From: Amycolatopsis methanolica 239
GTDB taxonomy: Bacteria > Actinomycetota > Actinomycetes > Mycobacteriales > Pseudonocardiaceae
DNA: 64,000 nucleotides
Direction of reading: 5' to 3'
NCBI RefSeq assembly: GCF_000739085.1
Contig: NZ_CP009110.1
Span: 4,588,001-4,652,000, forward strand
The notes under the pieces: model-generated
What the model was told of the DNA's origin: nothing
Database searches by the model: none
The model's input: only the letters and a program-made list of their open reading frames with translations
Position numbers and translations under genes: made by a program
Shown: positions 16,627 through 41,930 of the stretch, piece after piece
Layout: every line of letters begins with the position of its first letter
Position numbering within the stretch: the first letter of the stretch is position 1

Positions 16627-18399
16627 TCACTCCGCCTTCTCCGCCGGCACGCGGCCGTTCCCGCTCGGCGCGCCTTCGCCGGTGGGCGCCACCTGCAGGC
16701 AGAAGTCGCCGTCGTAGTGGCGGTTTCCGGTCAGCACCGCCTGCTCCACGATCTCCGCGCTCTTCTGCTCCCGCCGGATCATCGGGTCGCTGCGGAGGTC
16801 CTTCGCCAGCGCCACGCACAGCACCACCATGACCAGCGCGAACGGCGCCGCGGCGATGATCGTCAGGTTCTGCAGCCCGGTGAGCGCCTCGTCGCCACCA
16901 CCGCCGACCAGCAGCATCACCGCGGCCACCCCACCGGTCGCCACGCCCCAGAACACCACCAGCCAGCGCTTCGGCTCGATCGCGCCGCGTTGCGACATCG
17001 ACCCCATCACCAGCGACGCGGCGTCCGCGCCGGAAACGAAGAAGATCGCCACCAGCACCATCACCAGCACGCTCACCACGGCCGCCAGCGGGAACTGGTC
17101 GAGCAGGCCGAACATCTGCGACTGCGCGCTGCCCGCGCTCGCCAGATCCGTCCCACTCCGCTGGAGCGTGATCGCCGTACCCCCCATGATGCTGAACCAC
17201 ACCAGGCTCACCACGGACGGAACGAGGATCACGCCGACCACGAACTGCTTGATCGTGCGGCCGCGGCTGATCCGCGCGATGAACATGCCCACGAACGGCG
17301 TCCACGAGATCCACCACGCCCAGTAGAAGATCGTCCACGAGGACAGCCAGCTCTCCATGTTGTCGCCGCCGGAAGCGCCCGACCGCGAGATCATCTCGCC
17401 CATCTCGCGGAAGTAGTCGCCGATCGTCGAGGGCACCAGGTTGAGGATGAAGATCGTCGGCCCGACCACGAAGACGAACACCGCGAGCACGGCGGCAAGC
17501 ACCATGTTGATGTTGGACAGCCACTGGATGCCCTTCGCCACCCCGGACACCGCGGAGGCGACGAACGCCACCGTCAGCACCGCGATCACGCCGATGAGCA
17601 GGCCGGTGCCCGGGTTGTCCGACAGCCAGCCCCGCTGCACGAGCCCGCTGCCGATCTGCAGCGCGCCCAGCCCGAGCGACGCGGCGGACCCGAACAGCGT
17701 CGCGAAGATCGCCAGGATGTCGATGAGCCTGCCCAGCGGCCCCTCGCTCACCCGCTCGCCGAACAGCGGCGCGAACGCCGAGCTGATCAGCTGTTTGCGG
17801 CCGCGACGGAAGGTGCCGTAGGCGATGGCGAGCCCGACCACCGCGTACATCGACCACGGGTGGATGGCCCAGTGGAACAGCGAGGTCGCCATCGCGGTCT
17901 CCACCGCCGCGTCGGTGGTGCCCGCGACCGTGCCCGGTGGCGGCTCGACGAAGTGCGACAACGGTTCGGCGACCCCGTAGAACATGAGCCCGATGCCCAT
18001 GCCGGCGCTGAACATCATCGCGATCCACGACACCGTGCGGAACTCCGGCCGCTCGCCGTCGTGGCCGAGCGGGATCTTGCCGTACCGGCTGAACGCCAGC
18101 CAGATCGCGAACAGGACGAACCCGGTCGCGGCGAGCAGGAACGCCCAGCCGGTGTTCCGGATCAGCCAGTCCAGCACCGCCGCGGACACGCTGGAGAGGC
18201 TGTCGGTGGCGAACACGCCCCAGGCCAGGAACGCCGCCGCGACCACCGCCGCGACGACGAACACCACGCGATCCATCCCGCCGCGCGCTCTGGGTTCCGT
18301 GGGTTTCCGGGTCGATGCTTCCGTACTGGGCACGACGCTCACCGCCTCTTTCTCGAGTTGGTTGTCCGGTTGCCCCCCTGCGCTCTGCGAGATGGTCAC
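16627..18399 (-). CDS. BCCT family glycine betaine/choline transporter
   Basis: Integral membrane protein of 590 residues with about 12 helices from residue 45 onward. The family signature WAWWISWTPFVGMFIARISRG is present, as is the substrate-site helix FSAGMGIGLMFYG. BCCT proteins take up quaternary amines (betaine, choline, carnitine) with Na+ or H+. The GTG start at 18399 lies four bases after the stop of the Rieske oxygenase gene, so the pair is one transcript: uptake plus first demethylation of betaine. The N-terminus has about 40 charged residues before the first helix. Transcription ends at the hairpin just downstream. Confidence 0.9.
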   Translation of the reverse strand: MTISQSAGGQPDNQLEKEAVSVVPSTEASTRKPTEPRARGGMDRVVFVVAAVVAAAFLAWGVFATDSLSSVSAAVLDWLIRNTGWAFLLAATGFVLFAIWLAFSRYGKIPLGHDGERPEFRTVSWIAMMFSAGMGIGLMFYGVAEPLSHFVEPPPGTVAGTTDAAVETAMATSLFHWAIHPWSMYAVVGLAIAYGTFRRGRKQLISSAFAPLFGERVSEGPLGRLIDILAIFATLFGSAASLGLGALQIGSGLVQRGWLSDNPGTGLLIGVIAVLTVAFVASAVSGVAKGIQWLSNINMVLAAVLAVFVFVVGPTIFILNLVPSTIGDYFREMGEMISRSGASGGDNMESWLSSWTIFYWAWWISWTPFVGMFIARISRGRTIKQFVVGVILVPSVVSLVWFSIMGGTAITLQRSGTDLASAGSAQSQMFGLLDQFPLAAVVSVLVMVLVAIFFVSGADAASLVMGSMSQRGAIEPKRWLVVFWGVATGGVAAVMLLVGGGGDEALTGLQNLTIIAAAPFALVMVVLCVALAKDLRSDPMIRREQKSAEIVEQAVLTGNRHYDGDFCLQVAPTGEGAPSGNGRVPAEKAE

Positions 18400-18403
18400 C
18401 GCG

Positions 18404-19561
18404 TCACCGCCCGCCGGCCAGTGTCCGCTCGACCCACTGGTGGAATTCGCCGATGTGGTGTTCGGAGGGCACCAGGACCCCGCCGCGGGCGTAGGCACGG
18501 GAGGACATCGCGGGCTGGCAGCGTTCGCAGGCGTCGAAGTCCTGCTGGTTCACGCGGTGGAACAGCTCGACCGAATGTGACACGTCGCGGCCGGACTCCA
18601 CCACTTCGCGGGCGTACAGCCAATCGCATTCGACGATCGTGCGGTCGACCGCCATCGGGAACATCCGGTGGATGATCACGTGGTCGGGCACGAGGTTGAC
18701 GAACACCTGCGGTCGCACGGTGATCGCGTAGTAGCGGCGGTCCTGGTGCTCGTCCACCCCGCCGAGCCGGTCGAACCCGGCGCTGCCGTCCACCGTGAAC
18801 CCGCTGACGTCCTCGCCGAACTCCGCGCCGTGGCCCACGTAGTACTGCGCGGCGTAACCGTCGGCGAACTCCGGCAGCACCTCGGTCAGCTCGGGGTGGA
18901 TCGTCGCGCAGTGGTAGCACTCCATGAAGTTCTCGATGATGAGCTTCCAGTTGGCCTTGACGTCGTAGGTGATCCGCCTGCCCAGGGCCAGCTCGTCGAT
19001 GCCGTAGTTGCCGATCGCGTCCAGCTGCCCGAGCCGGCCCGCCACGTCCGCCTGCACTGTCTCCTCGAACGAGGGCGGCTCCTCGGCCAGGCACAGCCAC
19101 GCGTAGCCGAGCCACTCCCGCAGGTGCACCGGCTTGAGGCCGTATTCGGTGCGGTCGATATCCGGCATCGAGGTCAGGTTCGGCGCCGCGACGAGCTTGC
19201 CGTCCAGGCCGTAGGTCCACGCGTGGTAGGGGCACTGGAAGTTCCGCTTGACCGTGCCGCTCTCTTCCACGCACAGGCGTGCGCCGCGGTGGCGGCAGAT
19301 GTTGAGGAAGGCCCGCAGTGCGCCGTCCCGCGAGCGGGTCACCAACACGCTCTCGCGGCCGATCCGCACGGTGCGGAAGTCGCCGGGTTGTGGCAGGTCC
19401 GCGCCGCGGACCGCGCAGAACCACATCTGCTCGAATATCTTCTCCTGCTCCAGCGCGAAGATCGTCTCGTCGGTGTAGGTGATCCCGCCTAGCGTGGGGA
19501 TCAGGCTCGACGGAAGCCCGGACTGGTCGGTGGACGGTGCCGTGGTGGTGTTCTCGGTCAA
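18404..19561 (-). CDS. gbcA: Rieske oxygenase alpha subunit, glycine betaine monooxygenase (GbcA-like)
   Basis: Ring-hydroxylating-type oxygenase of about 385 residues. The Rieske cluster ligands are in CRHRGARLC and CPYHAW (about residues 80-105); the mononuclear iron ligands are in ENFMECYHCATIHPEL near 200. GbcA-type enzymes demethylate glycine betaine to dimethylglycine plus formaldehyde. That role is supported by the BCCT transporter in the same operon and by the dimethylglycine and sarcosine oxidases divergently transcribed. Electrons probably come from the ferredoxin and reductase at 34991-36483. I chose TTG at 19561 (GGAG seven bases upstream); the longer ATG at 19720 gives an implausible, cysteine/arginine-rich extension. 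Confidence 0.85.
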   Translation of the reverse strand: MTENTTTAPSTDQSGLPSSLIPTLGGITYTDETIFALEQEKIFEQMWFCAVRGADLPQPGDFRTVRIGRESVLVTRSRDGALRAFLNICRHRGARLCVEESGTVKRNFQCPYHAWTYGLDGKLVAAPNLTSMPDIDRTEYGLKPVHLREWLGYAWLCLAEEPPSFEETVQADVAGRLGQLDAIGNYGIDELALGRRITYDVKANWKLIIENFMECYHCATIHPELTEVLPEFADGYAAQYYVGHGAEFGEDVSGFTVDGSAGFDRLGGVDEHQDRRYYAITVRPQVFVNLVPDHVIIHRMFPMAVDRTIVECDWLYAREVVESGRDVSHSVELFHRVNQQDFDACERCQPAMSSRAYARGGVLVPSEHHIGEFHQWVERTLAGGR

Positions 19562-19599
19562 CGAACGCTCCGTGGTGGTGTGAGTGACCGGGGACTGGT

Positions 19600-19618
19600 T
19601 GTTGCCTCTTCCGCAACA
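19600..19618. promoter_or_regulatory. Inverted repeat upstream of the Rieske oxygenase
   Basis: TGTTGC and GCAACA arms flank a 7-base spacer (19-bp dyad, IclR/TetR size). It lies 39 bases upstream of the TTG start. Its reverse complement begins TGTTGCGGA, and the same nine bases recur at 34943 before the ferredoxin genes. The surrounding 19562-19867 has no gene; it carries this dyad plus the glyA promoter and operator. Confidence 0.5.
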
Positions 19619-19821: not shown

Positions 19822-19834
19822 GTTGATATATCAG
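19822..19834. promoter_or_regulatory. GTTGATATATCAG operator before glyA
   Basis: The 10-bp perfect palindrome TGATATATCA (19824-19833) sits inside GTTGATATATCAG. The same 13-mer with one change (GTTGATATACCAG, minus strand) lies before sdaA at 31568-31580, next to a GntR-family gene. AT-rich palindromes of this form are typical GntR/FCD operators. Confidence 0.6.
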
Positions 19835-19867: not shown

Positions 19868-21169
19868 ATGTCGGTGGCCATCGGCCGCGCTGGCGCACTC
19901 AGCCCCCAGCGCGTGCTCGGGCGTTCCCTGCTCCAGACCGATCCGGAGGTGCACGCGGCGATAGGGCGTGAGCTCGGCCGCCAGCGGGACACCCTGGAGA
20001 TGATCGCGAGCGAGAACTTCGCGCCGCTGGCGGTGATGCAGGCGCAGGGGTCGGTGCTGACCAACAAGTACGCCGAGGGCTACGCCGGCCGCCGCTACTA
20101 CGGGGGCTGCGAACACGTCGACGAGATCGAGACGCTCGCCATCGACCGGCTCAAGGCGCTCTTCGGCGCCGAGTACGCCAACGTGCAGCCGCACTCCGGC
20201 GCCCAGGCCAACGCCGCCGCCATGGCCGCGCTGCTGGAGCCCGGCGACACGATCCTGGGCCTGGACCTCGCGCACGGCGGGCACCTGACGCACGGGATGA
20301 AGCTCAACTTCTCCGGCCGCCTCTACAACGTGGCCGCCTACCACGTGCGCGCCGAGGACCACCGCGTCGACATGGAGGAGGTCGAGCGGCTGGCCCGGGA
20401 GCGCAGGCCGAAGCTGATCGTCGCCGGCTGGTCGGCCTATCCGCGGCACCTGGACTTCGCCGCGTTCCGCCGGATCGCCGACGAGGTGGGCGCGTACCTG
20501 ATGGTCGACATGGCGCACTTCGCCGGACTGGTCGCGGCGGGCCTGCACCCCTCCCCCGTGCCGCACGCGCATGTCGTCACCTCGACCACGCACAAGACGC
20601 TCGGCGGGCCGCGCGGCGGCGTGATCCTGGCCGAGCGGTCGCTGGCGAAGAAGCTGAACAACAGCGTGTTCCCCGGCCAGCAGGGCGGGCCGCTGGAGCA
20701 CGTCATCGCGGGCAAGGCGGTGGCGTTCAAGCTGGCCGCCGAGCCGGAGTTCCGGGAGCGCCAGGAACGCACGCTGCAGGGCGCGAAGATCCTCGCCGAC
20801 CGGTTCCTGCGCGAGACCGGGATCGGGGTGCTGACCGGCGGCACCGACGTGCACCTGGTGCTGGCCGACCTCCGGGAGTCCGAATTGGACGGCAAGCAGG
20901 CCGAGGACCGGCTGCACGAGGTCGGCATCACCGTCAACCGCAACGCCGTCCCGTTCGACCCGCGTCCGCCGATGATCAGCTCGGGCCTGCGGTTCGGCAC
21001 GCCCGCGCTGGCCGCCCGCGGGTTCGGCCCCGACGACTTCGCCGAGGTCGCCGACATCGCCGCGCTGGCGCTGCGCCCGGACGCCTCCGCCGCCGACCTG
21101 GACAAGCTCTCCGCCCGCGTCGCCGACCTCACCGCCCGCCACCCCCTCTACCCGGAGCTGACTGCATGA
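19868..21169 (+). CDS. glyA: Serine hydroxymethyltransferase
   Basis: PLP enzyme of 433 residues. MIASENFAP near residue 40, [18 protein letters not shown] near 68, HSGAQAN near 100, and the PLP lysine in [14 protein letters not shown] near 240. It interconverts glycine plus methylene-THF with serine plus THF. As first gene of the sarcosine/dimethylglycine oxidase operon it converts the glycine end product and the methylene-THF into serine, which sdaA then deaminates. GGGAGG precedes the ATG. A housekeeping copy probably exists elsewhere. Confidence 0.93.
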
Positions 21170-22401
21170 CCACCCCCCAGCCCCCTGGCGCGCACCTGCC
21201 CGACCACCCGGACTTCCTGTGGCGTAACCCAGAACCGAAGCGCAGCTACGACGTCGTGATCGTCGGCGGCGGCGGGCACGGCCTGGCCACCGCGCACTAC
21301 CTGGCGCGCAACCACGGCATCACCGACGTCGCCGTGCTGGAGCGTGGCTGGCTGGCCGGCGGGAACATGGCCCGCAACACCACGCTGATCCGCTCGAACT
21401 ACCTGTGGGACGCCTCCGCGGCGATCTACGAGCACGCCCTGAAGCTGTGGGAGGGTCTTGAGGACGACCTGGGTTACCCGATCCTGTTCTCCCAGCGCGG
21501 CGTGCTGAACCTGGCGCACACCGAGCAGGACGTCCGCGACAGCGTGCGCCGGGTGGAGGCCAACAAGCTCAACGGCATCGACGCCGAATGGCTCTCCCCC
21601 GACGAGGTCGCCAAGATCTGCCCGATCGTCAACGTCTCCGGCGACCTCCGGTACCCGGTACTGGGCGCGACCTACCAGCCGCGCGCGGGCATCGCCAAGC
21701 ACGACTACGTCGCCTGGGGTTTCGCCCGCCGGGCCGACGAGGCCGGGATCGACCTGATCCAGGACTGCGAGGTCACCGGGTTCACTGTGGACGGTGACCG
21801 GGTGACCAGGGTGCGGACCAGCCGCGGCGACATCGGCTGCGGCACCGTCGCCCTGTGCGCGGCCGGGCACACCTCGGTGCTGCTGGACCAGCTGGGCGTG
21901 CGGGCGCCGCTGCAGTCGCACCCGTTGCAGGCCCTGGTGTCCGAGCTGCTGGAACCGGTGCACCCGACGATCGTGATGTCCAACGCCGTGCACGTCTACG
22001 TGTCCCAGGCGCACAAGGGCGAACTGGTGATGGGCGCGGGCGTGGACTCCTACAACGGGTACGGCCAGCGCGGCGCCTTCCACATCATCGAGCGGCAGAT
22101 GGCTGCCGCGGTGGAGCTGTTCCCCGTGTTCGCCCGGGCGCACCTGCTGCGCACCTGGGCTGGGATCGTCGACGTCACGCCGGACGCCTCGCCGATCGTC
22201 GGCCGCACGCCCTACGACAACGTCTACCTCAACTGCGGCTGGGGCACCGGCGGTTTCAAGGCCACCCCGGGTCTGGGCTGGTGCCTGGCCGACACCGTCG
22301 CCAACGGCGAGCCGCACCCGTTCGTCGAGCCGTTCGGCCTGGACCGCTTCGTCACCGGCGCGCTCGTCGACGAGCACGGCGCCGCCGCCGTCGCCCACTA
22401 G
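21166..22401 (+). CDS. soxB: Sarcosine oxidase subunit beta
   Basis: FAD enzyme of 411 residues: [19 protein letters not shown] near residue 29 is the dinucleotide motif. [15 protein letters not shown] near 66 is typical of heterotetrameric sarcosine oxidase SoxB, and the C-terminal FAD contact [13 protein letters not shown] is present. SoxB oxidises sarcosine to glycine, using its covalent FMN/FAD centre with SoxA. ATGA overlap with glyA; followed by soxD. Confidence 0.93.
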
Positions 22402-22410: not shown

Positions 22411-22692
22411 ATGCAACTCATCACCTGCCCGTGGTGCGGGCCGCGCGAGGAAGTGGAGTTCCACTACGGCGGCCAGGCCCACCTCGCCTACCCGGACGAC
22501 CCTGCCGCGTTGTCCGACGAGGAGTGGGCGCACTTCGTCTTCTTCCGCGACAACCCCAAGGGCCCGTTCGCCGAACGCTGGAGCCACGCCGCAGGCTGCC
22601 GGCGCTGGTTCAACGCGGTCCGCGACACCCGGACCTACGAGTTTCTGGCCGTGTACCCGATGGGGCAATCCGCACCGGAGGTGGCGTCATGA
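22411..22692 (+). CDS. soxD: Sarcosine oxidase subunit delta
   Basis: Small zinc-binding subunit of 93 residues. CPWCGPREEVEFHYGG at the N-terminus and HAAGCRRWF near 70 supply the Cys/His ligands seen in SoxD proteins. It completes the heterotetramer with SoxB, SoxA and SoxG. The stop overlaps the soxA start (ATGA). Confidence 0.92.
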   Translation: MQLITCPWCGPREEVEFHYGGQAHLAYPDDPAALSDEEWAHFVFFRDNPKGPFAERWSHAAGCRRWFNAVRDTRTYEFLAVYPMGQSAPEVAS

Positions 22693-25461
22693 GCCGCATC
22701 AAGGGCTACGGCCGGATCGACCGCACCCGCACCGTCGGGTTCACCTTCGACGGGGTCGCCTACACCGGCCACCCGGGCGACACACTGGCGTCGGCACTGC
22801 TCGCGCACGGCGTGCACGGGGTGGGCACGAGCGTGAAGTTCGGCCGCCCGCGCGGGATCGGCGCGGCGTGGGTGGAGGACCCGACCGGGCTGGTGCAAAT
22901 CGAGGAGCCGTTCCCGGAGCCGATGCTGCTCGCCGCGACCGTGGAGCTGACCGACGGGCTCGTGGCGCGCGGGGTGGCCGGGCAGGGACGGCTCGCGGAG
23001 GTGGCCGACACCGCCCGCTACGACCGCAAGCACACGCATTGCGACACGCTCGTCGTCGGGGCGGGCCCGGCCGGGTTGCTGGCCGCGCGGTCCGCGGCGC
23101 GGCGCGGGGAACGGGTCGTGCTCGTCGACGACCGCGCCGACGCGGGCGGTTCACTGACCGGCGCCGAGGTGATCGACGGACGGCCGTCGCGGGAGTTCGT
23201 CGCCGAGGTGGTGGCCGAGCTGGCCGCCGCCCCGGAGGTGCTGCACCTGCAACGCACCACGGCGTTCGGGCAGTACGACGACGGGTTCGTGCTGGCGCTG
23301 GAACGGCGCACCGACCACCTGGGCACCGCGGCGCCGCGCAACGTCTCGCGCCAGCGGGTGCACCGGATCCGCGCCCGGCACGTCGTGGTCGCGACCGGCG
23401 CGCACGAGCGGCCGGTGGTGTTCGCCGACAACGACCGGCCGGGCATCATGCTCGCTTCCGCGGCACGGGACTACCTGCACCGCTACGGCGTGCTCGCCGG
23501 GCGCGAGGTCGTCGTGTTCACCACCAACGACTCCGCCTACGCCGCCGCGCTCGACCTGGAGCACGCCGGAGCGCGAGTCACCGTCCTCGACGCCCGCCCG
23601 AACGCGCCGGAGCACTGGGCCGCGCTGTGCCGGGAACGGTCGATCGCCGTGCGCCCGGGCAGCGCCGTCGCCGGCACCACCGGCGAGGACCGGATCACCG
23701 GCGTGGACACGGTCACCGCGGGCAAGGCCGAGCCGCTGCCGTGCGACCTGCTGCTGACCTCCGGTGGCTGGAACCCCGCCGCGCACCTGTTCAGTCACGT
23801 CCGCGGCGCGTTGCGGTACGACCCGGCCCTGGGCGCGTTCCGCCCGGCCGAGCCGGTTCCCGGGGTGTCGGTGATCGGCGCCGCGAACGGAACGTTCGAC
23901 CTCGCCGGCTGCCTGCGCGACGGCGCCGGGGACGACGCCCCCGCTACGCCCGCGGAGCCGCAGATCACGCCGCCGCTGGTGCTGTGGCGCACCGAGGGCG
24001 ACCCGGCCCGCCAGTTCGTGGACATCCAGCGCGACGCGACGGTAGCCGACATCGAGAGGGCGGTGGGCGCCGGGCTGCGGTCGGTCGAGCACATCAAGCG
24101 CTACACCACGATCGGCACCGCGCACGACCAGGGCAAGACGTCCGGGGTGATCGCCTCCGGCATCGTCGCCGAGCTGCTCGGGAAACCGGTCGAGGACACC
24201 GGCACCACGACGTTCCGCCCGCCCTACACCCCGGTGGCGTTCGCCGCCCTGGCCGGGCGCGAGCGCGGGAAGCTGTTCGACCCCGAGCGGATCACCTCGC
24301 TGCACAGCTGGCACGTCGCGGCCGGCGCGGTGTTCGAGGACGTCGGGCAGTGGAAGCGCGCCCGCTACTACCCGGCGCCGCACGAGAACATGGACGCCGC
24401 CGTGCTGCGCGAGTGCGCCGCGGTCCGCGGCGGGGTCGGCATCCTGGACGGCTCCACCCTGGGCAAGATCGACGTGCAGGGCCCGGACGCCGCCGAACTG
24501 CTGGACCGGCTCTACACCAACATGATGAGCACGCTCAAGGTCGGGCGCGTGCGCTACGGCGTCATGTGCGGCAACGACGGCATGGTGTTCGACGACGGCA
24601 CCGTGCTGCGCCTGGCCGAAGACCGGTTCCTGGTCGTCACCACCACCGGCGGCGCGGCGCGCGTGCTGGACTGGATGGAGGAGTGGCTGCAGACCGAGTG
24701 GCCGGACCTGCGCGTGCACCTGACTTCGGTGACCGAGCAGTGGTCGGTGTTCCCGGTGGTCGGGCCGCGCTCCCGCGACGTGATCGCCGCGGCCTTCCCG
24801 CATCTGGACGTGTCCAACGAGGCGTTCCCGTTCATGTCCTGGCAGGACACCGAAGCCGACGGCGTCCCGGTGCGCATCGCCCGCATCTCGTTCTCCGGCG
24901 AGCTGGCCTTCGAGGTCAACGTGAACTCCTGGTACGCCAGGGCGATGTGGCTGCGCCTGCTGTCGGCCGGCGCGCGCTGGAACATCACCCCGTACGGCAC
25001 GGAAACCATGCACGTCCTGCGTGCGGAGAAGGGCTACCCGATCGTCGGGCAGGACACCGACGGCACCGTCAGCCCGCACGACCTCGGCCTGGGCTGGGCG
25101 GTGTCGAAGAAGAAGCGGGACTTCGTCGGCAAGCGCTCGTTCTCCCGCCCGGAGAACACCAACCCGGAGCGCAAGCAGCTGGTGTCGCTCCTGCCCGCCG
25201 ATGCCCGGACCAAGCTGCCGGAGGGCTCACAGGTCGTGGAGTTCCGCCCGGACGGCACCCTGCCCCCGCCGCCGGTGCCGATGCTCGGCCACGTCACCTC
25301 CAGCTACCACAGCGCCGAGCTGGGCCGCCCGTTCGCGCTGGCCCTCGTCAAGGGCGGGCAGTCGCGCATCGGCGACACCGTGCACGTCCCGGTCGACGGC
25401 GCCCTGGTGCCCGCCGAGATCGGCGGGATCGTGCTGGTCGACCCGGAAGGAGCCCGCCGCG

Positions 25462-25469
<8 letters not shown>
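22689..25469 (+). CDS. soxA: Sarcosine oxidase subunit alpha
   Basis: Large subunit of 926 residues. N-terminal 2Fe-2S-like/thioredoxin-fold region (GYGRIDRTRTVGFTFDGVAY), then an NAD-binding domain with DTLVVGAGPAGLLAARSA near 120, and a C-terminal GcvT-like folate-binding domain from about 560 (LDGSTLGKIDVQGPDAAELL, later RAEKGYPIVGQDTDG). With THF the methyl group leaves as 5,10-methylene-THF, without it as formaldehyde. Overlaps soxD by four bases and soxG by eight. Confidence 0.93.
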
Positions 25470-28535
<3,066 letters not shown>

Positions 28536-31537: not shown

Positions 31538-31567
31538 CCTATCCACTGAAAACCACGATCCGTCACT

Positions 31568-32983: not shown

Positions 32984-33832
32984 ATGACGCGCTCGTTCAC
33001 GCTCACCCTGGACTGCCCGAACCGGACCGGGATCGTCCACGCCGTCAGCGCCTACCTCGTCGAGCACGGCGGCGACATCGAGGAGTACCAGCAGTTCGAC
33101 GACCCGGTGCGCAAGCGGCTTTTCCTGCGCACCAAGGTCACCACGGACGCCGAGGTGGACCTCGGCGAGCTGTCCCGCGGCTTCGAGCCGGTCGCCGCGG
33201 ATTTCGCCATGTCGTATGCGTTCCACCCGGACCGCAACGCCCGCGTCCTGGTGATGGTGTCCAAGCAGGGCCACTGCCTCAACGACCTCATCTTCCGCTG
33301 GCGCGCGGGCAGCCTGGGCGCGGACATCGTCGCGGTGGTGTCCAATCACGACGATCTTCGCCCGATGGCGGAGGCGGCCGGGTTGCCGTTCCTCCACATC
33401 CCGGTGACCCCGGAGACCAAGCCCCAGGCGGAGGCGCGGCTGCTGGAGGTGGTGGAGGAGTTCGAGGCGGAGCTGGTGGTGCTCGCCCGGTACATGCAGG
33501 TGCTGTCCGACCAGCTGTGCAAGGCGCTGCACGGCCGGGCGATCAACATCCACCACTCGTTCCTGCCCGGGTTCAAGGGCGCGAAGCCCTACCACCAGGC
33601 CTACGACCGGGGAGTGAAGCTCGTCGGCGCGACGGCGCATTACGTGACGCCCGACCTGGACGAGGGCCCGATCATCGAGCAGGAGGTCATCCGCATCGAC
33701 CACACCTACGACCCACGCGCACTGCAAACGGTAGGCCGCGACGCGGAGGCGCTGGCGCTGTCCCGAGCGGTCCGCTGGCACTGCGAACGCCGCGTGCTGC
33801 TCAACGGCAACAGCACCGTGGTCTTCCCCTGA
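32984..33832 (+). CDS. purU: Formyltetrahydrofolate deformylase
   Basis: Protein of 282 residues: an N-terminal ACT domain (TLDCPNRTGIVHAVSAYLVE) and a C-terminal formyltransferase-fold domain. The latter has VSNHDDLRPMAEAAGLPF, INIHHSFLPGFKGAKPYHQA (catalytic His) and TAHYVTPDLDEGPIIEQ (catalytic Asp). It hydrolyses 10-formyl-THF to formate and free THF. With FolD/FchA it regenerates THF for DMGO and SoxA. In the sdaA operon it links C1 release to serine breakdown. Confidence 0.93.
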   Translation: MTRSFTLTLDCPNRTGIVHAVSAYLVEHGGDIEEYQQFDDPVRKRLFLRTKVTTDAEVDLGELSRGFEPVAADFAMSYAFHPDRNARVLVMVSKQGHCLNDLIFRWRAGSLGADIVAVVSNHDDLRPMAEAAGLPFLHIPVTPETKPQAEARLLEVVEEFEAELVVLARYMQVLSDQLCKALHGRAINIHHSFLPGFKGAKPYHQAYDRGVKLVGATAHYVTPDLDEGPIIEQEVIRIDHTYDPRALQTVGRDAEALALSRAVRWHCERRVLLNGNSTVVFP

Positions 33833-34081: not shown

Positions 34082-34870
34082 CTACCGGGGCCCGAGGTAG
34101 CCGACGCGGAAGCTGATCTCCTCGGCCCCGGCGACGATCTTCTCCGCGATGTCCGGATAGGACGATGGCTCCATCCGGTACGCCGGCCCGGAGACCGACA
34201 GCGCCGCGATCACGTCCCCGTTCGCGGCGCGGATCGGGGCGGCCACCGCGTTGAGCCCGACCTCCAGCTCCTCCACGGTGCACGCCCAGCCGCGCTCGCG
34301 GACCTGCTCCAGCTCCTCGGCGAGCTTGCCCCGGTCGGTGCGGGTGTTCGGTGTGAACGCGGGCAGCTCGGCCAGCGCGGCTTCCCGGTCGTCGTCGCCT
34401 GCCCAGGCCAGCAGGACCTTGCCACTGGACGTGGCGTGCAGCGGGGTGCGCTGGCCAATCCAGTTCCGCGCGGTCACCGCCGCCGAGCCGTAGACCTGCA
34501 TGATGTTGGTCGCCTGATCCTGGTCCACCACGGCGACGTTCACGGTCTCGTCGAGTTCCGCGGCGAGCCGCTCGCACACCGCGCGGCTCTCCCGCGACAG
34601 GTCGAGCCGGGCCGTGGTGGCCCCGGCAAGGCGCACGATGCCGAACCCGAGGCGGTACTTGCCGCGCTCGCTGACCTGTTCCACCAGCTGCCACGCCTCG
34701 AGCGCGCCGACCAGGCGGAACGCCGTCGACTTGTGCACGTCCAGTTCCTGGGCGATCTCGGTGACGCCGGCCTCGCCCCGTCTGGCCAGGATGTCCAGGA
34801 TGGCGATCGCCCGGTCCACCGACTGGACCTGACTCGCGGACCCGTTCGTAGAGCGCTCGTTGTTCCGCAT
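34082..34870 (-). CDS. IclR-family transcriptional regulator
   Basis: Regulator of 262 residues. Winged helix at about 14-75 (VQSVDRAIAILDILARRGEA, then LDVHKSTAFRLVGALEAW) and IclR effector domain from about 90 (NVAVVDQDQATNIMQVYG, TPLHATSSGKVLLAW, VEELEVGLNAVAAPI). Divergent from the ferredoxin/reductase genes, with dyads in the 120-bp intergenic region. The adjacent genes suggest glycine betaine or a derivative as effector (inference). The 249 bases downstream (33833-34081) hold no gene. Confidence 0.9.
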   Translation of the reverse strand: MRNNERSTNGSASQVQSVDRAIAILDILARRGEAGVTEIAQELDVHKSTAFRLVGALEAWQLVEQVSERGKYRLGFGIVRLAGATTARLDLSRESRAVCERLAAELDETVNVAVVDQDQATNIMQVYGSAAVTARNWIGQRTPLHATSSGKVLLAWAGDDDREAALAELPAFTPNTRTDRGKLAEELEQVRERGWACTVEELEVGLNAVAAPIRAANGDVIAALSVSGPAYRMEPSSYPDIAEKIVAGAEEISFRVGYLGPR

Positions 34871-34942: not shown

Positions 34943-34979
34943 TGTTGCGGATAGCACGTGTAGTTGTGCATTACACAAC
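34943..34979. promoter_or_regulatory. Two dyads between iclR and the ferredoxin gene
   Basis: TGTTGCGGATAGCAC (34943-34957) shares its first nine bases with the reverse complement of the dyad at 19600-19618. Next to it is the perfect inverted repeat GTTGTG-CATTA-CACAAC (34963-34979), 11 bases before the ferredoxin ATG. Both fit IclR-type operator size and are placed to control the divergent pair. Confidence 0.5.
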
Positions 34980-34990: not shown

Positions 34991-35311
34991 ATGATTTCCG
35001 TCTGCGCTCTCCAGGACCTCCCCGTCGGCGAAGCCGTCCGCATCGAAGCCGAGGTGCCGATCGCGGTGTTCAACGTCGACGGCACGCTGTACGCGATCGA
35101 CGACACCTGCACCCACCAGGACGCCTCGCTGGCCGACGGCTGGCTGGACGGCTGCGCGGTGGAGTGCCCCCTGCACGCCGCCTGCTTCGACCTGCGCACC
35201 GGCATGCCGAGCGGGCCCCCGGCGAAGAAGCCGGTGCGCACGCACGAGGTCGTCGTGGTCGACGGGCAGATCTACGTCAACGTCAACGCGCCGCAGCGGA
35301 TGGGGGTCTGA
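34991..35311 (+). CDS. Rieske [2Fe-2S] ferredoxin
   Basis: Protein of 106 residues with both Rieske boxes: CTHQDASL near 42 and CPLHAACFDLRTG near 61. It resembles the ferredoxins of three-component oxygenases. The likely partner is the betaine monooxygenase at 18404-19561, which has no reductase beside it. The stop overlaps the reductase start (TGATG). ATG at 34991 gives the canonical start ISVCALQDLPVGEAVRIE; an ATG at 34964 lies inside the operator region. Confidence 0.9.
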   Translation: MISVCALQDLPVGEAVRIEAEVPIAVFNVDGTLYAIDDTCTHQDASLADGWLDGCAVECPLHAACFDLRTGMPSGPPAKKPVRTHEVVVVDGQIYVNVNAPQRMGV

Positions 35312-36483
35312 TGCGCGTGATCGCCATCGCCGGCGCGTCGCTGGCCGGCCTGTCCACGGCACGCGCGCTGCGGGAGGCCGGCTTCGACGGGCGGGTGGTC
35401 GTCGTCGGCGACGAGCCGCACCGGCCCTACGACCGGCCGCCGCTGTCGAAGGAGTTCCTCGCCGGCACGATGTCCGCGGCCGACCTGGCGCTGGAGAGCG
35501 ACGACGAGGACCTGGACGCGGACTGGTGCCTGGGCGCACGGGCCGTGGCCCTGGACCCGGCGCTGCGGACGATCGTGCTCGACTCGGGCAAGCGGATCAC
35601 CTGCGACGGCGTCGTCCTGGCGACCGGTGCACGGGCCCGCCGCCTGCCGGGCTCGACGCCGGCGGGTGTGCACACGCTGCGCACCCTGGACGACGCGATC
35701 GCGCTACGGGCGGAGCTCGTCCCGGGCGCGCGGCTGGTGGTGATCGGAGCCGGGTTCATCGGCGCCGAAGTGGCCTCGACCGCGCGCGGGCTCGGCCTGG
35801 CGGTCACGGTGGTCGAACAGCAGGCCGTGCCGCTCGCCGGGCCGCTCGGCGCCGAGCTGGGCGGCGTGTGCGCGGCGTTGCACGGCGAGCACGGGGTCGA
35901 GCTGATCACCGGCGTCGGCGTGGCCGGGCTGACCGGCGCGAAACGGGTGCGGTCGGTGCACCTGACCGACGGCCGCGAACTGCCTGCCGACGTCGTGGTG
36001 GTGGGCGTCGGCGCGGTGCCGAACACCGAGTGGCTGGCCGGGTCCGGTTTGGACGCGGAGCGGGGCGTGCGCACGGACGCGCGGTGCGCGACCGGCATCC
36101 CGTCCGTGGTGGCGGTCGGCGACTGCGCGGTGTCGCACAACCCGTTCGCCGACGCCGAGATCCGGCTCGAACACTGGACCAACGCGCTGGAGCAACCGGC
36201 CACCGCCGCGGCGACCCTGCTCGGACACGAGCAGCTGCCCGGCCCGCGCGCGCCCTACTTCTGGTCGGATCAGTACGGGGCGCGCCTGCAGTTCGCGGGC
36301 CACCGCCGCGACGGCGACCGGATGGAAGTCGTCGACGGCGACCCGGCGGCGCGCCGGTTCACCGCCGTGTTCCGGCGGGGCGACCGCCCGGTGGCGGTGT
36401 TCGCGATGAACCAGCCGAAGGTGTTCGGCCGCTGGCGCCGCGAGCTGCGCGCCACCGCTCCGGAACCGGTCGCGGGCCGGTAA
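35311..36483 (+). CDS. NAD(P)/FAD-dependent ferredoxin reductase
   Basis: Protein of 390 residues of the rubredoxin/putidaredoxin reductase type. FAD motif IAGASLAGLSTARALREAGF, PYDRPPLSKEFLAG near 38, NAD motif VVIGAGFIGAEVASTARGLG near 146, and VVAVGDCA near 265. It passes electrons from NAD(P)H to the Rieske ferredoxin, completing an oxygenase electron chain. In Pseudomonas GbcB is a single flavin/ferredoxin protein, so the split ferredoxin plus reductase is a different arrangement. Confidence 0.9.
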   Translation: MRVIAIAGASLAGLSTARALREAGFDGRVVVVGDEPHRPYDRPPLSKEFLAGTMSAADLALESDDEDLDADWCLGARAVALDPALRTIVLDSGKRITCDGVVLATGARARRLPGSTPAGVHTLRTLDDAIALRAELVPGARLVVIGAGFIGAEVASTARGLGLAVTVVEQQAVPLAGPLGAELGGVCAALHGEHGVELITGVGVAGLTGAKRVRSVHLTDGRELPADVVVVGVGAVPNTEWLAGSGLDAERGVRTDARCATGIPSVVAVGDCAVSHNPFADAEIRLEHWTNALEQPATAAATLLGHEQLPGPRAPYFWSDQYGARLQFAGHRRDGDRMEVVDGDPAARRFTAVFRRGDRPVAVFAMNQPKVFGRWRRELRATAPEPVAGR

Positions 36484-36487: not shown

Positions 36488-37075
36488 TCAGGAGGCAGGA
36501 CCGGCGATCGCGCGGCGGAACAGCGCCTCGATGTCCGAAGGGGACGGTGTGCCGTCCGCGATCGCCAACTGCATCAGCAAACCGCAGAACAGCCCCGCGA
36601 GCAGGCGCCCGGTCAGCGCGTCCGTCCGGGAGCCGAACAGCTCGACCAGCGCGTCGTCCCACGCCGCGCTCACCGGCCGCAGCCGGGGCCGGTGCATGGC
36701 CGCCACGTAGAGGTCGTACTCGACCACCGTGTGCGGGCCCTCGTCACGCACGTACCGCATCACCAGCTCCGCCAGCGCGGCCGCGAAGTCCGCGTCCGGC
36801 GGCACGCCGCGCTCCCACTCCCGCAGGCGGCGGACGTTGTCCTCGGCCGCCTGGCTCAGCGCGACCTCGAGCAGGTCGTCCAGCGTCCGGAAGTGGTACG
36901 TGGTCGAGCCCAGCGGCACCCCCGCGGCCGCGGCGACCGCCCGGTGCGTCAGCCCGTCGATCCCCCGCTCCGCCACCACGTCGATGGCGGCGCGCGCGAT
37001 CTTCGTGCGCCGTCCGGGATCGTTGGGACGCTGCCGGCGCGATCCGGCCGTCTGCCCAGACACCACCGCGCACAC
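36488..37075 (-). CDS. TetR-family regulator, BetI-like position
   Basis: TetR regulator of 195 residues. The helix-turn-helix spans about 22-68 (KIARAAIDVVAERGIDGLTH, then VAAAAGVPLGSTTYHFRTLD). The C-terminal ligand domain is short and not assigned. It is divergent from betB, with a 20-bp imperfect palindrome in between, which is the arrangement of BetI, the choline-responsive repressor. Sequence similarity to BetI itself was not tested. The start is GTG at 37075; GTG codons a few residues further in are possible. Confidence 0.85.
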   Translation of the reverse strand: MCAVVSGQTAGSRRQRPNDPGRRTKIARAAIDVVAERGIDGLTHRAVAAAAGVPLGSTTYHFRTLDDLLEVALSQAAEDNVRRLREWERGVPPDADFAAALAELVMRYVRDEGPHTVVEYDLYVAAMHRPRLRPVSAAWDDALVELFGSRTDALTGRLLAGLFCGLLMQLAIADGTPSPSDIEALFRRAIAGPAS

Positions 37076-37118: not shown

Positions 37119-37138
37119 GAGTATGGACATCCGTACTC
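37119..37138. promoter_or_regulatory. TetR-type operator between regulator and betB
   Basis: GAGTATGGACATCCGTACTC is a 20-bp palindrome (9 of 10 pairs match). It lies 43 bases before the regulator start and 86 bases before betB, in a position to control both directions. Confidence 0.6.
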
Positions 37139-37224
37139 ACTCTCATGTACAAATGTACGCACTGACGTGCCGCGCATCACATTCCCCGCGCCGGCGTTGC
37201 CCGCTACCGCATCGGAAAGGGCTC

Positions 37225-38694
37225 ATGAAGGACCTGTACATCGACGGGAACTGGACCGAGGGGCGCGACGGGTCCCGCACCGACGTCCGCAACCCCTACG
37301 ACGCCTCGGTCATCCAGACGGTCGCCCTCGCCGCGCCCGAGGACGTCGACCGGGCCGTCACCGCCGCGCGAGCGGCGTTCCGCCCCGGCTCACCGTGGCG
37401 CCGCACCACCGCGGGCGAACGCGCCGAACTGCTCCACCGCATCGCCGACCTGCTGGTCCGCGACCGCGAGGACATCGCCCGCACGGAAACCCTCGACACC
37501 GGCAAGACCCTCGCCGAGGGCCGCATCGACGTCGACGATGTGGTCGCGGTGTTCCGCTACTACGCCGCGGCGATCGCGCAGGAAGCCGGGCGCGTGGTGG
37601 ACACCGGCAACCCGGCCGCGATCAGCCGGATCGTGCACGAGCCGGTGGGCGTCTGCGCGTTGATCGCCCCGTGGAACTACCCGCTGCTGCAGATCTCCTG
37701 GAAGATCGCCCCCGCGCTGGCCGCGGGGAACACGATGGTGCTCAAACCGAGCGAGCTCACCCCGCTGACCACCATCCGGCTCGTCGCGCTCGCCGAGGAG
37801 GCCGGTGTGCCGCCGGGCGTGGTCAACCTGCTGCTCGGCCCTGGCGCGGTCGGCGCGGCGATGGTCGAGCACCCCGGCGTCGACCTCGTGTCGTTCACCG
37901 GCGGGCTGGCGACCGGCGAGAAGATCATGGCCGCCGCGGCGCGCGGCGTCCGCCGGGTGGCGCTGGAGCTCGGCGGCAAGAACCCCAACGTGGTCTTCGA
38001 CGACGCCGACTTCGACACCGCCGTCGACCACGCCCTCAACGCCGCGTTCGTCCACTCCGGACAGGTCTGCTCGGCGGGCGCCCGGCTGATCGTGCAGAAC
38101 GGGATCCACGACCGGTTCGTCGGCGAGCTCGCCCGGCGCGCCGAGCGGATCCGGCTGGGCAACGGGCTCGACCCCGGCACCGAGTGCGGTCCGCTCATCT
38201 CCGCGCAGCACCGCGCGAAGGTCGAGGGCTACATCGCCGGGGCGATCGCCGAGGGCGCCACCCTGCACGCCGGCGGCGCGCGGCCGGAAGATCCCGCGCT
38301 GCGCCACGGTTTCTTCCTCCGGCCGACCGTGTTCGGCGACTGCACCCGCGACATGGCCGTGGTGCGCGAGGAAGTGTTCGGCCCGGTCGTCACGGTGGAA
38401 CGGTTCGCCACCGAGGCGGAGGCCGTCGAGCTGGCCAACGACACCGACTACGGCCTCGCCGGCGCGGTGTGGACCTCCGACGCCGGCCGCGCCCAGCGCG
38501 TGGCCGGGGCGCTGCGCCACGGCACGGTCTGGATCAACGACTACCACCCGTACCTGCCCCAGGCGGAGTGGGGCGGCTTCGGCAAGTCCGGCATCGGCCG
38601 CGAACTGGGCCCGTCCGGCCTGCACGAGTACCGCGAGACCAAGCACATCTACCACAACATCGATCCCCGGCCGCAGCACTGGTTCAAGGGCTGA
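37225..38694 (+). CDS. betB: Betaine aldehyde dehydrogenase
   Basis: Aldehyde dehydrogenase of 489 residues. NAD motif FTGGLATGEKIM near 225, catalytic Glu in LELGGKNPNVVF near 250 and catalytic Cys in FVHSGQVCSAG near 285. ALIAPWNYPLLQ near 145 binds cofactor. It oxidises betaine aldehyde to glycine betaine. GAAAGG lies seven bases before ATG 37225; the longer upstream frame runs through the operator region. The name rests on the adjacent choline dehydrogenase and BetI-like regulator. Confidence 0.88.
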   Translation: MKDLYIDGNWTEGRDGSRTDVRNPYDASVIQTVALAAPEDVDRAVTAARAAFRPGSPWRRTTAGERAELLHRIADLLVRDREDIARTETLDTGKTLAEGRIDVDDVVAVFRYYAAAIAQEAGRVVDTGNPAAISRIVHEPVGVCALIAPWNYPLLQISWKIAPALAAGNTMVLKPSELTPLTTIRLVALAEEAGVPPGVVNLLLGPGAVGAAMVEHPGVDLVSFTGGLATGEKIMAAAARGVRRVALELGGKNPNVVFDDADFDTAVDHALNAAFVHSGQVCSAGARLIVQNGIHDRFVGELARRAERIRLGNGLDPGTECGPLISAQHRAKVEGYIAGAIAEGATLHAGGARPEDPALRHGFFLRPTVFGDCTRDMAVVREEVFGPVVTVERFATEAEAVELANDTDYGLAGAVWTSDAGRAQRVAGALRHGTVWINDYHPYLPQAEWGGFGKSGIGRELGPSGLHEYRETKHIYHNIDPRPQHWFKG

Positions 38695-38739: not shown

Positions 38740-40260
38740 GTGAGCACCAGCAACGACCACGGACTGTCCGAGTTCGGGTACCGGCAGTCCCTCGACCGCA
38801 GCATCGGCAAGTTCGCGAGTTTCGCCGCCGGGGTCAGCTACATCTCCATCCTCACCGGCACGTTCCAGCTGTTCTACTTCGGGTTCGGCACCGGCGGGCC
38901 GGCCTACTGGTGGTCCTGGCCGATGGTCTTCGCCGGGCAGATCGCCGTGGCCCTGTGCTTCGCCGAGCTGGCCGCCCGCTACCCGGTCGCCGGTTCGGTC
39001 TACAACTGGTCGAAGAGACTCGCCGGGCCCACCACGTCGTGGCTGGCCGGCTGGATGATGTTCACCGCCTCCGTGGTCACCCTGGCCGGCGTGGTGCTGG
39101 CCTACCAGGTCACGCTGCCACAGCTGTGGTCCGGCTTCCAGCTGATCGGCGACGGCGGCGGCGCACACGACTTCGGGATCTCCGCGGTGATCTGGGGCGC
39201 CGTGCTGATCCTGTTCACCACGGTGGTCAACGCCTTCGGCGTCAAGCTGATGGCACGCATCAACAGCATCGGCGTGTTCATCGAGCTGATCGCGGCGGTC
39301 CTGCTGGTCGTCATCCTCGCGGTGAACGTGGTGCGCGGTCCCGGTGTCTTCGTCGACACGCACGGGCTCGGCGAGGGGCACACCGGTGGCTACGCCGGCG
39401 TGTTCCTGGTGGCCGCGATCGCCTCGGCCTACGTCATGTACGGCTTCGACACGGCGAGTTCGCTGGGCGAGGAGACCGTCAACCCGCGGCGCACCGCGCC
39501 GGTGGCGATCCTGCGCGCGGTCATCGCGTCGTTCGTGATCGGCGGGCTGATCCTGCTGTTCGCCATCATGGCCGCGCCCGACCTGTCCGATCCGCGGCTG
39601 AGCACGTCGTCGGGCGGGCTGCAGCTGATCGTGCTGCAGGTGCTCGGCGGGCCGTTGGGCAAGGTGTTCCTGTGCTGCATCGTCGTCGCCATCACGGTGT
39701 GCGCGCTGGCCGTGCACACCGCCGGGATCCGGCTGATGTTCGCGATGGCCAGGGACAACGCCCTGCCGTTCGGGGTGCGGCTGGCCCGGATCAACGCCAA
39801 GACCGGCACCCCGGTGGTCGCGGCGATCCTCATCGGCGCGGTCGCGGTGGCGATCCTGCTGGTCAACATCGGCACGCCGCAGATCTTCACCGCGGTCACC
39901 AGCGTCGCGGTGGTGATGATCTACCTGGCCTACCTGCTGGTGACGGTGCCGATGCTGGTCAAGCGGGTGCGCGGCGGGTGGTCGGGCCGCGACGCGGGCG
40001 GTCACTTCTCGCTCGGCCGGTTCGGACTGCCGGTCAACATGGTCGCCGTGCTGTGGGGCGCCGGGATGTCCGTGAACCTGGCGTGGCCGCGCGAGCAGAT
40101 CTACGGCGGCGGGGTGCTGCGCTGGATGGCCCTGATCTTCATCGGGATCGTCGCCGCGATCGGCCTGGCGTGGTTCCGGCTCCGCGGCTGCCGCCGCCTC
40201 GGCACGCTCCCCGAACACCAGGCCGACCGCGGCGACCGGCTCGTCGACGAGCTTTCCTGA
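38740..40260 (+). CDS. APC-superfamily amino acid/amine permease
   Basis: Membrane protein of 506 residues with about 12 helices. The first helix region is [20 protein letters not shown]; the APC consensus is seen in [20 protein letters not shown] and [20 protein letters not shown]. It sits between betB and betA, so choline or a related amine is the probable substrate. Choline importers in bet operons are usually BCCT or ABC types, so an APC permease here is unusual. GTG start with GAGGAG upstream. Confidence 0.85.
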
Positions 40261-40271
40261 GGAGGACGAAC

Positions 40272-41930
40272 GTGAGCACCGAGAACTACGACTTCATCAT
40301 CGTCGGCGGCGGCTCGGCCGGGTGCGTGCTGGCCAACCGGCTCTCGGCCGACCCGAAGGTGAAGGTGCTGGTGCTGGAGGCAGGCCGGCCGGACGCCAAG
40401 TGGGACGTGTTCGTGCACATGCCCGCCGCGCTGACCTTCCCGATCGGCAGCCGCTTCTACGACTGGGGCTACCGCAGCGAACCCGAGCCGTTCATGAACC
40501 GGCGGCGCATCTACCACGCGCGCGGCAAGATCCTCGGCGGGTCGAGCAGCATCAATGGCATGATCTTCCAGCGGGGCAACCCGATGGACTACGAACGGTG
40601 GGCCGCCGACCCGGGGATGTCCGGCTGGGACTACGCGCACTGCCTGCCCTATTTCCAGCGCATGGAGAACTGCCTCGCCGATCCACCGGACGGGCGCTGG
40701 CGCGGGCACGACGGCCCGCTGGAGCTGGAACGCGGACCGGCGTCGAACCCGTTGTTCCAGGCGTTCTTCGAAGCCGCCGAACAAGCCGGGTACCCGCGCA
40801 CGGACGACGTGAACGGCTACCGGCAGGAGGGGTTCGCACCCTTCGACCGGAACGTGCGCCGCGGCCGCAGGCTCTCCGCCGCCCGCGCCTACCTGCACCC
40901 GGTGCGGCACCGGAAGAACCTGACCGTGCAGACCCGCGCGTTCGTGTCGCAGGTCCTGTTTCGCGGCAACCGCGCCGTCGGGGTCGAGTACTCGACCGGG
41001 CGGAGCGCGCCGCGCGAGGTGTACGGCAAGGAGGTCGTGCTGTGCGGCGGAGCGATCAACACGCCGCAACTGCTGCAGCTGTCGGGCGTGGGCAACGCGG
41101 CCGAGCTGCGCCGGCTCGGCATCGACGTGGTCCACGACCTGCCCGGCGTCGGTGAGAACCTGCAGGACCACCTCGAGGTGTACATCCAGTACGCCTGCAA
41201 GGAACCGGTGTCGATGCAGCCGCACCTGGCGACGTGGAAGCGCCCGCTGATCGGCGCGCAGTGGTTGTTCCTGCGGTCCGGCCCGGGCGCCACGAACCAC
41301 TTCGAGGGCGGCGGTTTCGTGCGCAGCAACGACACCGTGGCCTACCCGAACCTGATGTTCCACTTCCTGCCGATCGCGATCCGCTACGACGGCTCGGTGC
41401 CCGCCGGTGGGCACGGCTACCAGGTCCACGTGGGACCGATGTACGCCGACACGCGCGGCAGCGTGAAGATCACGTCCACGGATCCGCGGCGGCACCCGGC
41501 GCTGCGGTTCAACTACCTGTCCACCGAGAACGACCGGCGCGAGTGGGTGGAGGCCGTGCGGGTGGCCCGCAAGATCCTCAACCAGCCCGCGCTGGACCGC
41601 TACAACGGCGGCGAGATCTCCCCCGGCCCCGGCGTGGAGACCGACGAACAGATCCTGGACTGGGTGGCGAAGGACGCGGAGACCGCGCTGCACCCGTCCT
41701 GCACGGCGAAGATGGGCGTCGACGACATGTCCGTTGTGGACCCTGGGTCGATGCGGGTGCACGGGACGGAGAGCCTGCGCGTCGTCGACGCCTCGGTGAT
41801 GCCCTACATCACCAACGGCAACATCTACGCGCCGGTGATCATGACCGCGGAGAAGGCGGCGGACCTGATCCTCGGCAACACCCCGCTGGCGCCGATCAAG
41901 GAGCCCTTCTACCGGCATACCACCGGCTGA
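40272..41930 (+). CDS. betA: Choline dehydrogenase (GMC oxidoreductase)
   Basis: GMC flavoprotein of 552 residues. FAD motif [19 protein letters not shown] at the start, GMC signature [20 protein letters not shown] near 85, second signature [15 protein letters not shown] near 258, and active-site His in [10 protein letters not shown] near 475. It oxidises choline to betaine aldehyde at the membrane. It is the last gene of the betB-permease-betA operon (GGAGGA before GTG start). Confidence 0.9.

Follow-up and report, generated by a model that had tools for sequence, protein, structure and literature searches.

The basic pathway by which betaine is demethylated through dimethylglycine and sarcosine is known from the soxBDAG/dmg genes of Arthrobacter and the glyA-soxBDAG-purU cluster of Corynebacterium (Meskys 2001, Suzuki 2005, Chlumsky 1995, as represented in the available parts of PMC3534580 and PMC3691474). 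Here, we describe a betaine/choline island of 25 kb in Amycolatopsis methanolica 239, spanning 16.6-41.9 kb of a 64,000-nucleotide stretch (the window; bases 4,588,001-4,652,000 of the single-contig genome of 7,237,391 bases; G+C 71%). We regard it, with good confidence, as an actinobacterial glycine-betaine catabolic regulon that has its own folate enzymes, is controlled by a GntR regulator and is separate from the ribulose monophosphate (RuMP) genes in its neighbourhood. What appears to be new relative to the known pathway is a palindrome probably marking a regulon, a FolD without its lysine that is accompanied by FchA, and a clade of FolP found, in the family genomes searched, only within the cluster. 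Based on the dimethylglycine oxidase (DMGO), the closest named relatives were Amycolatopsis tucumanensis, A. thermalba and A. deserti (98-99% identical).

The island begins with the genes for a BCCT transporter and a Rieske oxygenase on the reverse strand, divergent from a forward run, glyA-soxBDAG-dmgO-fchA-folD-folP, in which the genes are tightly packed and several overlap, the folD start lying within the end of fchA. These are followed by gntR (reverse), sdaA-purU (forward), iclR (reverse), the ferredoxin and reductase genes (forward), tetR (reverse) and betB-permease-betA (forward) (Table 1). All open reading frames (ORFs) of the named families were intact, in agreement with the sequence-only reading of this stretch, which had recognised families for transport, for conversion of choline through betaine, dimethylglycine, sarcosine, glycine and serine to pyruvate, and for release of one-carbon (C1) units as formate. 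The order of steps it had proposed, choline to pyruvate and C1 to formate, was also supported; to its gene list have to be added folP, which had been overlooked, and the GntR, IclR and TetR regulators, which had gone unmentioned. A heterotetrameric sarcosine oxidase was indicated by SoxB and SoxA scores over the family cut-offs, a SoxG domain and the B-D-A-G gene order, with soxD assigned by homology only. In the predicted pathway, BetA and BetB would oxidise choline to betaine, the three-part Rieske system would take off the first methyl group as formaldehyde, and DMGO and SoxBDAG would transfer the next two to tetrahydrofolate (THF) as methylene-THF. GlyA would then combine one methylene-THF with glycine to give serine, which SdaA would convert to pyruvate; excess methylene-THF would be oxidised by the lysine-less FolD, FchA would open the ring, and PurU would free formate and THF. 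Uptake of choline by the APC permease is proposed with reserve, since the permease scored under the cut-off of its nearest model.

For comparison, species genomes of actinobacteria were scanned with the DMGO protein, and the best 80 of at least 595 confirmed loci (DMGO 73-99% identical) were retained with 10 kb of flank around DMGO; some loci ended at contig ends, and 58 had full flanks. With 21 island proteins as queries and a match of at least 60 bits taken as presence, homologues were found for soxA in 72 loci, purU in 72, gntR in 71, soxD in 70, and the Rieske oxygenase, glyA and sdaA in 59 each, while the ferredoxin reductase (52), ferredoxin (50), fchA (34), folD (30), folP (29) and betB (11) were rarer. 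The corresponding counts in the 58 full-flank loci were 57 for soxA, 53 for purU, 49 for the Rieske oxygenase and 25 for folP. The counts for betA (2/80) and the permease (6/80) are uninformative because both genes lie mostly outside the 10-kb flank. Recurrence of the core cluster in the 80 loci indicates that the arrangement is not due to chance. It was also observed that Saccharopolyspora rosea (locus L010, 17513-19885) carries an FdhF/YdeP-type molybdopterin oxidoreductase gene 3′ of purU, with homologues in 5 of the 80 loci including this one; it might act as formate oxidase in the pathway.

Examination of the intergenic regions revealed a 12-bp palindrome common to the glyA promoter (TTGATATATCAG) and the gntR/sdaA promoter (CTGGTATATCAA). 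Allowing up to 2 mismatches, TTGATATATCAA had 124 matches in 1,643,175 bases of the 80 relatives, 116 of which, distributed over 67 loci, fell between 450 bases ahead of an aligned cluster gene and 60 bases into it, the gene being most often gntR, dmgO, glyA or sdaA. By comparison, when the letters of the palindrome were shuffled into 40 other palindromes, 1.2 matches were obtained on average and 7 at most; the loci are related, so that matches are not independent, yet the contrast is large. Since sites adjoin gntR in 40 loci, GntR would be the natural binder, and the palindrome probably marks a regulon with GntR as its regulator, which would control the glyA-to-folP and sdaA-purU operons. In the whole genome, 9 places matched at up to 2 mismatches versus 3 for a reversed control pattern, and an island homologue was absent at each of the seven places outside the island; the other 1-mismatch place (3,055,586) precedes a gene that looks ArsR-type by eye and was taken as unrelated. 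Within 100 kb from the window start, the palindrome was confined to the two sites of the island, also when 3 mismatches were allowed, and thus was found neither before betB nor before the ferredoxin gene, which suggests that the choline part (TetR) and the ferredoxin/reductase pair (IclR) are probably under separate control. The earlier proposal of one regulated module therefore holds for the core, with the betB and ferredoxin parts left outside it. Inverted repeats at 34963-34979 (before the ferredoxin gene) and 19600-19618 (near the Rieske promoter) are alike by eye only; they are listed as candidate IclR sites and no claim is made for them. A scan of the window with Rfam gave no family at gathering score, and hence no sign of RNA regulation.

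The key residues of FolD-type enzymes, in human numbering, are Tyr52, Lys56, Gln100, Leu101, Asp125, Gly273 and Gly276, with the catalytic lysine in a YxxxK motif (PMC3368264, in its available part). This lysine, by which a bifunctional FolD is recognised, is missing from the island FolD, which has YVRSI in place of YVxxK and QTPLP in place of QLPLP; solved FolDs align over the YVRSI position without gaps. An alignment was made of 30 rows, comprising the window and 29 loci, one FchA-paired locus having been dropped (coverage <0.8). In all 28 FchA-paired rows, one from the window and 27 from the 28 loci with both folD and fchA, the lysine was replaced (27 Ile, 1 Val), and in the two loci without fchA (L081 and L083; FolD 35% identical) YVAAK and QLPLP were kept. 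The yeast dehydrogenase-only enzyme Mtd1 is likewise without the lysine. Because the island FolD is devoid of this residue while the two other FolDs of the genome, one of them at 795,419, keep it, FchA probably supplies the cyclohydrolase, leaving the island FolD as the dehydrogenase; the solved structure nearest to FchA is a methenyl-THF cyclohydrolase (7vg4). Genes fchA and folD occurred together in 28 of the 80 clusters. Among the matches listed in a search of freely available literature on FolD with FchA, none was on an actinobacterial betaine cluster by title.

Adjacent to folD, the product of folP had a dihydropteroate synthase score well over the TIGR01496 cut-off together with the conserved motifs NVTPDSF, GGESTRPG, DPGFGFGK, SRK and RVHD, presumably substrate-binding or catalytic, which were unchanged in 26 of 26 rows. 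The genome encodes three FolP-type proteins, at 4618012 (island), 6726381 (47% identical to that of the island) and 3093664, and, in long frames of 1367 and 1183 codons, two further pterin-binding proteins, which were taken for methionine synthases. The island-type FolPs (26/26 rows; window and 25 loci) formed one clade with support of 98/98, spanning Pseudonocardiaceae, Nocardiaceae and Geodermatophilaceae, in a tree with long branches flagged among the background rows. When 297 genomes of the family were searched from FolP, 18 gave a hit at E<=1e-80, in each case among cluster genes: 17 adjoined gntR with folD or dmgO, and one was located between glyA and sdaA. A class-wide search returned only the window's own genome out of 394, and with the best 6 candidates per genome scored it may miss relatives, so that the family search was relied on. 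In 17 loci folP accompanied both fchA and folD; in loci L014 (6630-6728) and L015 (6628-6726), a 33-residue folP-like remnant follows fchA in the place that is taken by folD-folP in other loci. Scores were higher against 1aj0 (266 bits), which we take to be the Escherichia coli enzyme, than against the dihydropteroate synthase I 1eye (186 bits), presumably from Mycobacterium tuberculosis, which hints at a lateral origin of the island FolP. It is probable that this FolP provides an extra folate supply for a pathway that would use THF twice as methyl acceptor, expanding the pool on demand. Freely available literature on dihydropteroate synthase with sarcosine oxidase did not describe such a cluster, judged by title and start of abstract, and no earlier description of the folate arrangement of the island was found in the literature searched.

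Located 16 kb from the island is the RuMP unit, recognised by HxlA and HxlB scores over both cut-offs, which is probably a mere neighbour, a separate element across a synteny break. Comparison by blastn of 100 kb of this region with 80 kb of a sister genome (G017) showed the two to be collinear, apart from some gaps, between 5.6 kb (the edge of the fetched stretch) and 42.3 kb, blocks of more than 600 bases being 92-97% identical; beyond 42,293 no G017 match longer than 150 bases was obtained, with 36.7 kb more of G017 sequence compared. From about 58,321 onward the RuMP unit was conserved in G009, G010 and G004 (to the contig end), at 77-93% in the main blocks, and the fetched sequence on the other side of this position gave no match. 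Relatives G009, G010, G013 and G018 had HxlB over the cut-off and neither DMGO (E<=1e-50) nor the island-type Rieske oxygenase (E<=1e-80); conversely, HxlB was lacking in G002 and G017, which carry the island (top scores 56.5 and 57.8 bits; cut-off 160). In a set of 61 genomes (codes G000 etc.), HxlB exceeded the cut-off in 8 and DMGO (E<=1e-50) was present in 30, with both in 4 (G000, G004, G011 and G023) where 3.9 would be expected from independence; if G001 and G005, which fall a few bits short of the HxlB cut-off, are counted, the figures become 10, 30 and 5 (4.9 expected). Of the other three genomes with both, the island-type DMGO was on another contig than HxlB in G004 and G011 (draft assemblies) and about 400 kb away in G023. 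In addition, no palindrome was present within 42-100 kb (window numbering), RuMP region included. The betaine and RuMP genes thus showed neither conserved linkage nor a shared operator, G023 being a partial counter-example.

It had been supposed that the island and the RuMP genes constitute one C1 module in which betaine formaldehyde is assimilated via hexulose 6-phosphate. In favour of this are their location within 48 kb, the grouping of hxlA, hxlB and tkt, and the absence of a linked formaldehyde dehydrogenase homologue from the window island, unlike 30 of the 80 relatives. On that side also stands G023, a genome of another genus, where, in locus L171 (9025-15043), hxlB (183 bits) lies about 1 kb from a dimethylglycine dehydrogenase (DMGDH)-like gene (37% identical to DMGO), separated from it by gntR, and is divergent to gntR, this DMGDH-like gene and, after it, two electron transfer flavoprotein (ETF)-like genes (ETF models under cut-off); a TGATATATC-like site, with 2 mismatches, precedes gntR in the interval to hxlB; a link between RuMP-type gene and demethylase may therefore exist elsewhere. 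The break in synteny, the co-occurrence as expected from independence, the separate location of the genes in the other genomes with both, and the lack of palindromes argue to the contrary, as does a mycothiol-dependent formaldehyde dehydrogenase kept elsewhere in the genome (3,883,029, the sole match at E<=1e-150). Membership of the RuMP genes in the module was thus rejected on linkage and synteny, with the G023 locus retained as a counter-example, and we consider feeding of RuMP within one such module quite improbable, while betaine formaldehyde could enter RuMP by diffusion. In 31 of the 80 loci a formaldehyde dehydrogenase homologue (sharing 65% identity or more with any of three references, which score 666-692 against the 512.9 of TIGR03451, S-(hydroxymethyl)mycothiol dehydrogenase) was found, in 30 of these no more than 1.5 kb from a core gene. 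Together with the thiol-independent formaldehyde dehydrogenase of A. methanolica (PMC11577753, in its available part), the enzyme at 3,883,029 would give formaldehyde from the Rieske step ready oxidative routes.

Within the island itself, we tentatively suggest a regulon with its own cofactor supply, in which a substrate-induced, possibly laterally acquired FolP raises folate when THF serves as methyl acceptor, and a FolD lacking cyclohydrolase commits, with FchA, surplus C1 units to formate; this is a possibility rather than our firm expectation. Several observations weigh against this proposal or the wider assignment of the island. The human Lys56 also aids the dehydrogenase step (PMC3368264, in the part available), so that loss of the lysine might harm both FolD activities; FchA falls short of its family cut-off; an fchA-like gene occurs without folD in 6 loci (four at 35-51% identity) and folP without fchA or folD in 10; the FolP searches scored the best 8 candidates per genome (family) or the best 6 (class-wide); the 80 loci are mutually related and hence not independent observations; and in 7 of the 80 relatives a palindrome site is close to the ferredoxin gene, in contrast to the separate control suggested for the window. 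From the frequencies of folP (29/80) and fchA with folD (28/80), none of them is essential to the pathway, and with two lysine-bearing FolDs and two other FolPs in the genome, the island copies might be redundant or neutral passengers, the housekeeping enzymes doing the work, as their absence from more than half of the clusters would allow. Such a view, which we judge unlikely, is countered by FolP motifs kept across three bacterial families, by the restriction of the clade to the cluster in the 297-genome search and by a lysine loss that tracks FchA in all 30 rows. Likewise, the Rieske oxygenase, FchA, BetB, the reductase and, for the glycine-betaine model (NF047988, 559.9 against 650), the BCCT transporter do not reach the cut-off of the NCBIfam equivalog nearest to each of them. 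For the oxygenase, whose nearest solved relatives are 3vca/4qup (187 bits), which we take to be stachydrine demethylase, and carnitine monooxygenase (157 bits), and whose GbcA score is far under the cut-off, another quaternary ammonium compound such as stachydrine or carnitine might be the substrate, the enzyme meeting the betaine pathway by location only. This we hold to be very unlikely, because a homologue lies within the fetched DMGO flanks in 59 of the 80 loci, which is most simply explained by a product that joins the pathway as dimethylglycine; the enzyme, though not filed as GbcA, probably works like it, as judged from context, with betaine as substrate.

Table 1. Features of the betaine/choline island and of the RuMP unit in the window (scores against NCBIfam, TIGRFAM or Pfam models in bits, as score/cut-off)
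Feature	Position	Strand	Basis or remark
BCCT-family transporter	16627..18399	-	TIGR00842 526.2/407.55; start 18399 inferred, longest ORF from 18498
Rieske oxygenase, probable glycine betaine N-demethylase	18404..19561	-	top NCBIfam match GbcA (NF058607) 222.8/670; TTG start 19561 inferred
Operator-like palindrome TTGATATATCAG	19823..19834	.	upstream of glyA
glyA, serine hydroxymethyltransferase	19868..21169	+	NF000586 592.4/335; start 19868 inferred
soxB	21166..22401	+	TIGR01373 607.1/529.45
soxD	22411..22692	+	position and reading frame; homologue in 70/80 loci
soxA	22689..25469	+	TIGR01372 1199.1/1164 (scored on longer frame)
soxG	25462..26049	+	PF04268 55.9/21 (scored on longer frame)
dmgO, dimethylglycine oxidase/dehydrogenase-type enzyme	26070..28535	+	PF01266, PF16350, PF01571, PF08669 in order; start 26070 inferred
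fchA-like cyclohydrolase	28548..29168	+	NF045657 141/275 (below); PDB 7vg4 108.8 bits
FolD-like methylene-THF dehydrogenase without YxxxK lysine	29165..30004	+	PF00763 and PF02882 (longer frame); YVRSI not YVxxK
folP, dihydropteroate synthase	30012..30857	+	TIGR01496 317/162.6
GntR-family regulator	30863..31546	-	family judged from sequence; homologue in 71/80 loci
Second palindrome copy CTGGTATATCAA	31568..31579	.	between gntR and sdaA
sdaA, L-serine ammonia-lyase	31599..32972	+	TIGR00720 669.6/345.1
purU, 10-formyl-THF deformylase	32984..33832	+	PF00551 143.5 bits (longer frame); homologue in 72/80 loci
IclR-family regulator	34082..34870	-	NF045644 (BhcR) 185.4/350, below
Rieske-type ferredoxin	34991..35311	+	CTHQ...CPLHAACFD by eye; homologue in 50/80 loci
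Ferredoxin reductase	35311..36483	+	PF07992 and PF14759; HcaD-like 262.2/450, below
TetR-family regulator, weakly BetI-like	36488..37075	-	TIGR03384 29.6/201.3, below
betB, betaine-aldehyde dehydrogenase	37123..38694	+	TIGR01804 623/668.6, just under; best of 43 families
APC-family permease	38740..40260	+	TIGR03428 534.6/740.45, below; homologue adjoins betB in 6/80 loci
betA, choline dehydrogenase	40272..41930	+	TIGR01810 848.6/732.1 (longer frame); GTG start 40272 inferred
6-phosphofructokinase	58321-59703	-	RuMP side
glpX	59749-60786	-	RuMP side
hxlB	60759-61436	-	HxlB 221.4/160
tkt	61584-63716	-	RuMP side
hxlA	63758-64396, past window end	.	HxlA 234.3/200, two copies

Several features were noticed between and beyond these two gene groups. 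A fragment of an ISL3-family transposase gene lies at 42797-43423, just past the island end and the synteny break, and the region 45162-53482 between island and RuMP unit encodes an acyl-CoA dehydrogenase, a CoA transferase/isomerase-like protein, a thiolase, an acyl-CoA synthetase, a hydrolase and a metabolite:H+ symporter. Preceding the RuMP unit, at 56445-58058, cytochrome aa3 oxidase subunit I is represented by two pieces on opposite strands, which match positions 2-92 and 66-229 of the model and correspond to a broken or rearranged copy. The hxlA gene has two copies in opposite orientation, 63753-64531 and 84578-85354 (window numbering), which are separated by about 20 kb and share 99.7% identity over 779 bases.

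It is rarely possible to test cleanly whether bacteria enlarge a coenzyme pool in step with the flux through a single catabolic pathway. In the island, a cofactor gene is part of a catabolic operon preceded by a predicted operator, and housekeeping copies at other places in the genome serve as control. Loss of the FolD lysine together with presence of FchA suggests a simple sequence rule for dehydrogenase-only FolDs in actinobacteria. Furthermore, the comparison weakens the tempting inference that adjacent RuMP genes serve betaine degradation, and mycothiol-dependent formaldehyde oxidation is indicated as a frequent partner of the cluster.

In having dehydrogenase and cyclohydrolase as separate proteins, the island resembles Clostridium perfringens, whose split FolD/FchA was reportedly the subject of work by Aluri in 2016, but in the window both are in a catabolic operon, with two lysine-bearing FolDs elsewhere in the genome. 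A. methanolica uses RuMP for methanol, its methanol metabolism having reportedly been treated by Alves in 1994; the hxlA, hxlB and tkt genes are shared with that system, from which the present locus differs in that the RuMP unit is separate from the island. The clusters of Vibrio natriegens (PMC12093977) and Colwellia (PMC3691474), as given in the available parts of these papers, involve the same intermediates and combine gbcA with glyA, soxBDAG and purU (and sdaB in Vibrio). These proteobacterial clusters have gbcB and dgcAB; in their place, the window encodes a separate Rieske ferredoxin together with an HcaD-like reductase, and DMGO as one chain; moreover, in the same parts, the folD genes of Colwellia bear distant locus numbers (PMC3691474) and folP is not mentioned for either cluster. 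The Arthrobacter and Corynebacterium clusters, in the accounts cited at the outset, likewise hold glyA, soxBDAG, sdaA and purU together for conversion of glycine through serine to pyruvate, with a dimethylglycine oxidase in Arthrobacter; relative to these accounts, the window adds the Rieske system, the BCCT transporter, betBA, fchA, a lysine-less folD and folP.

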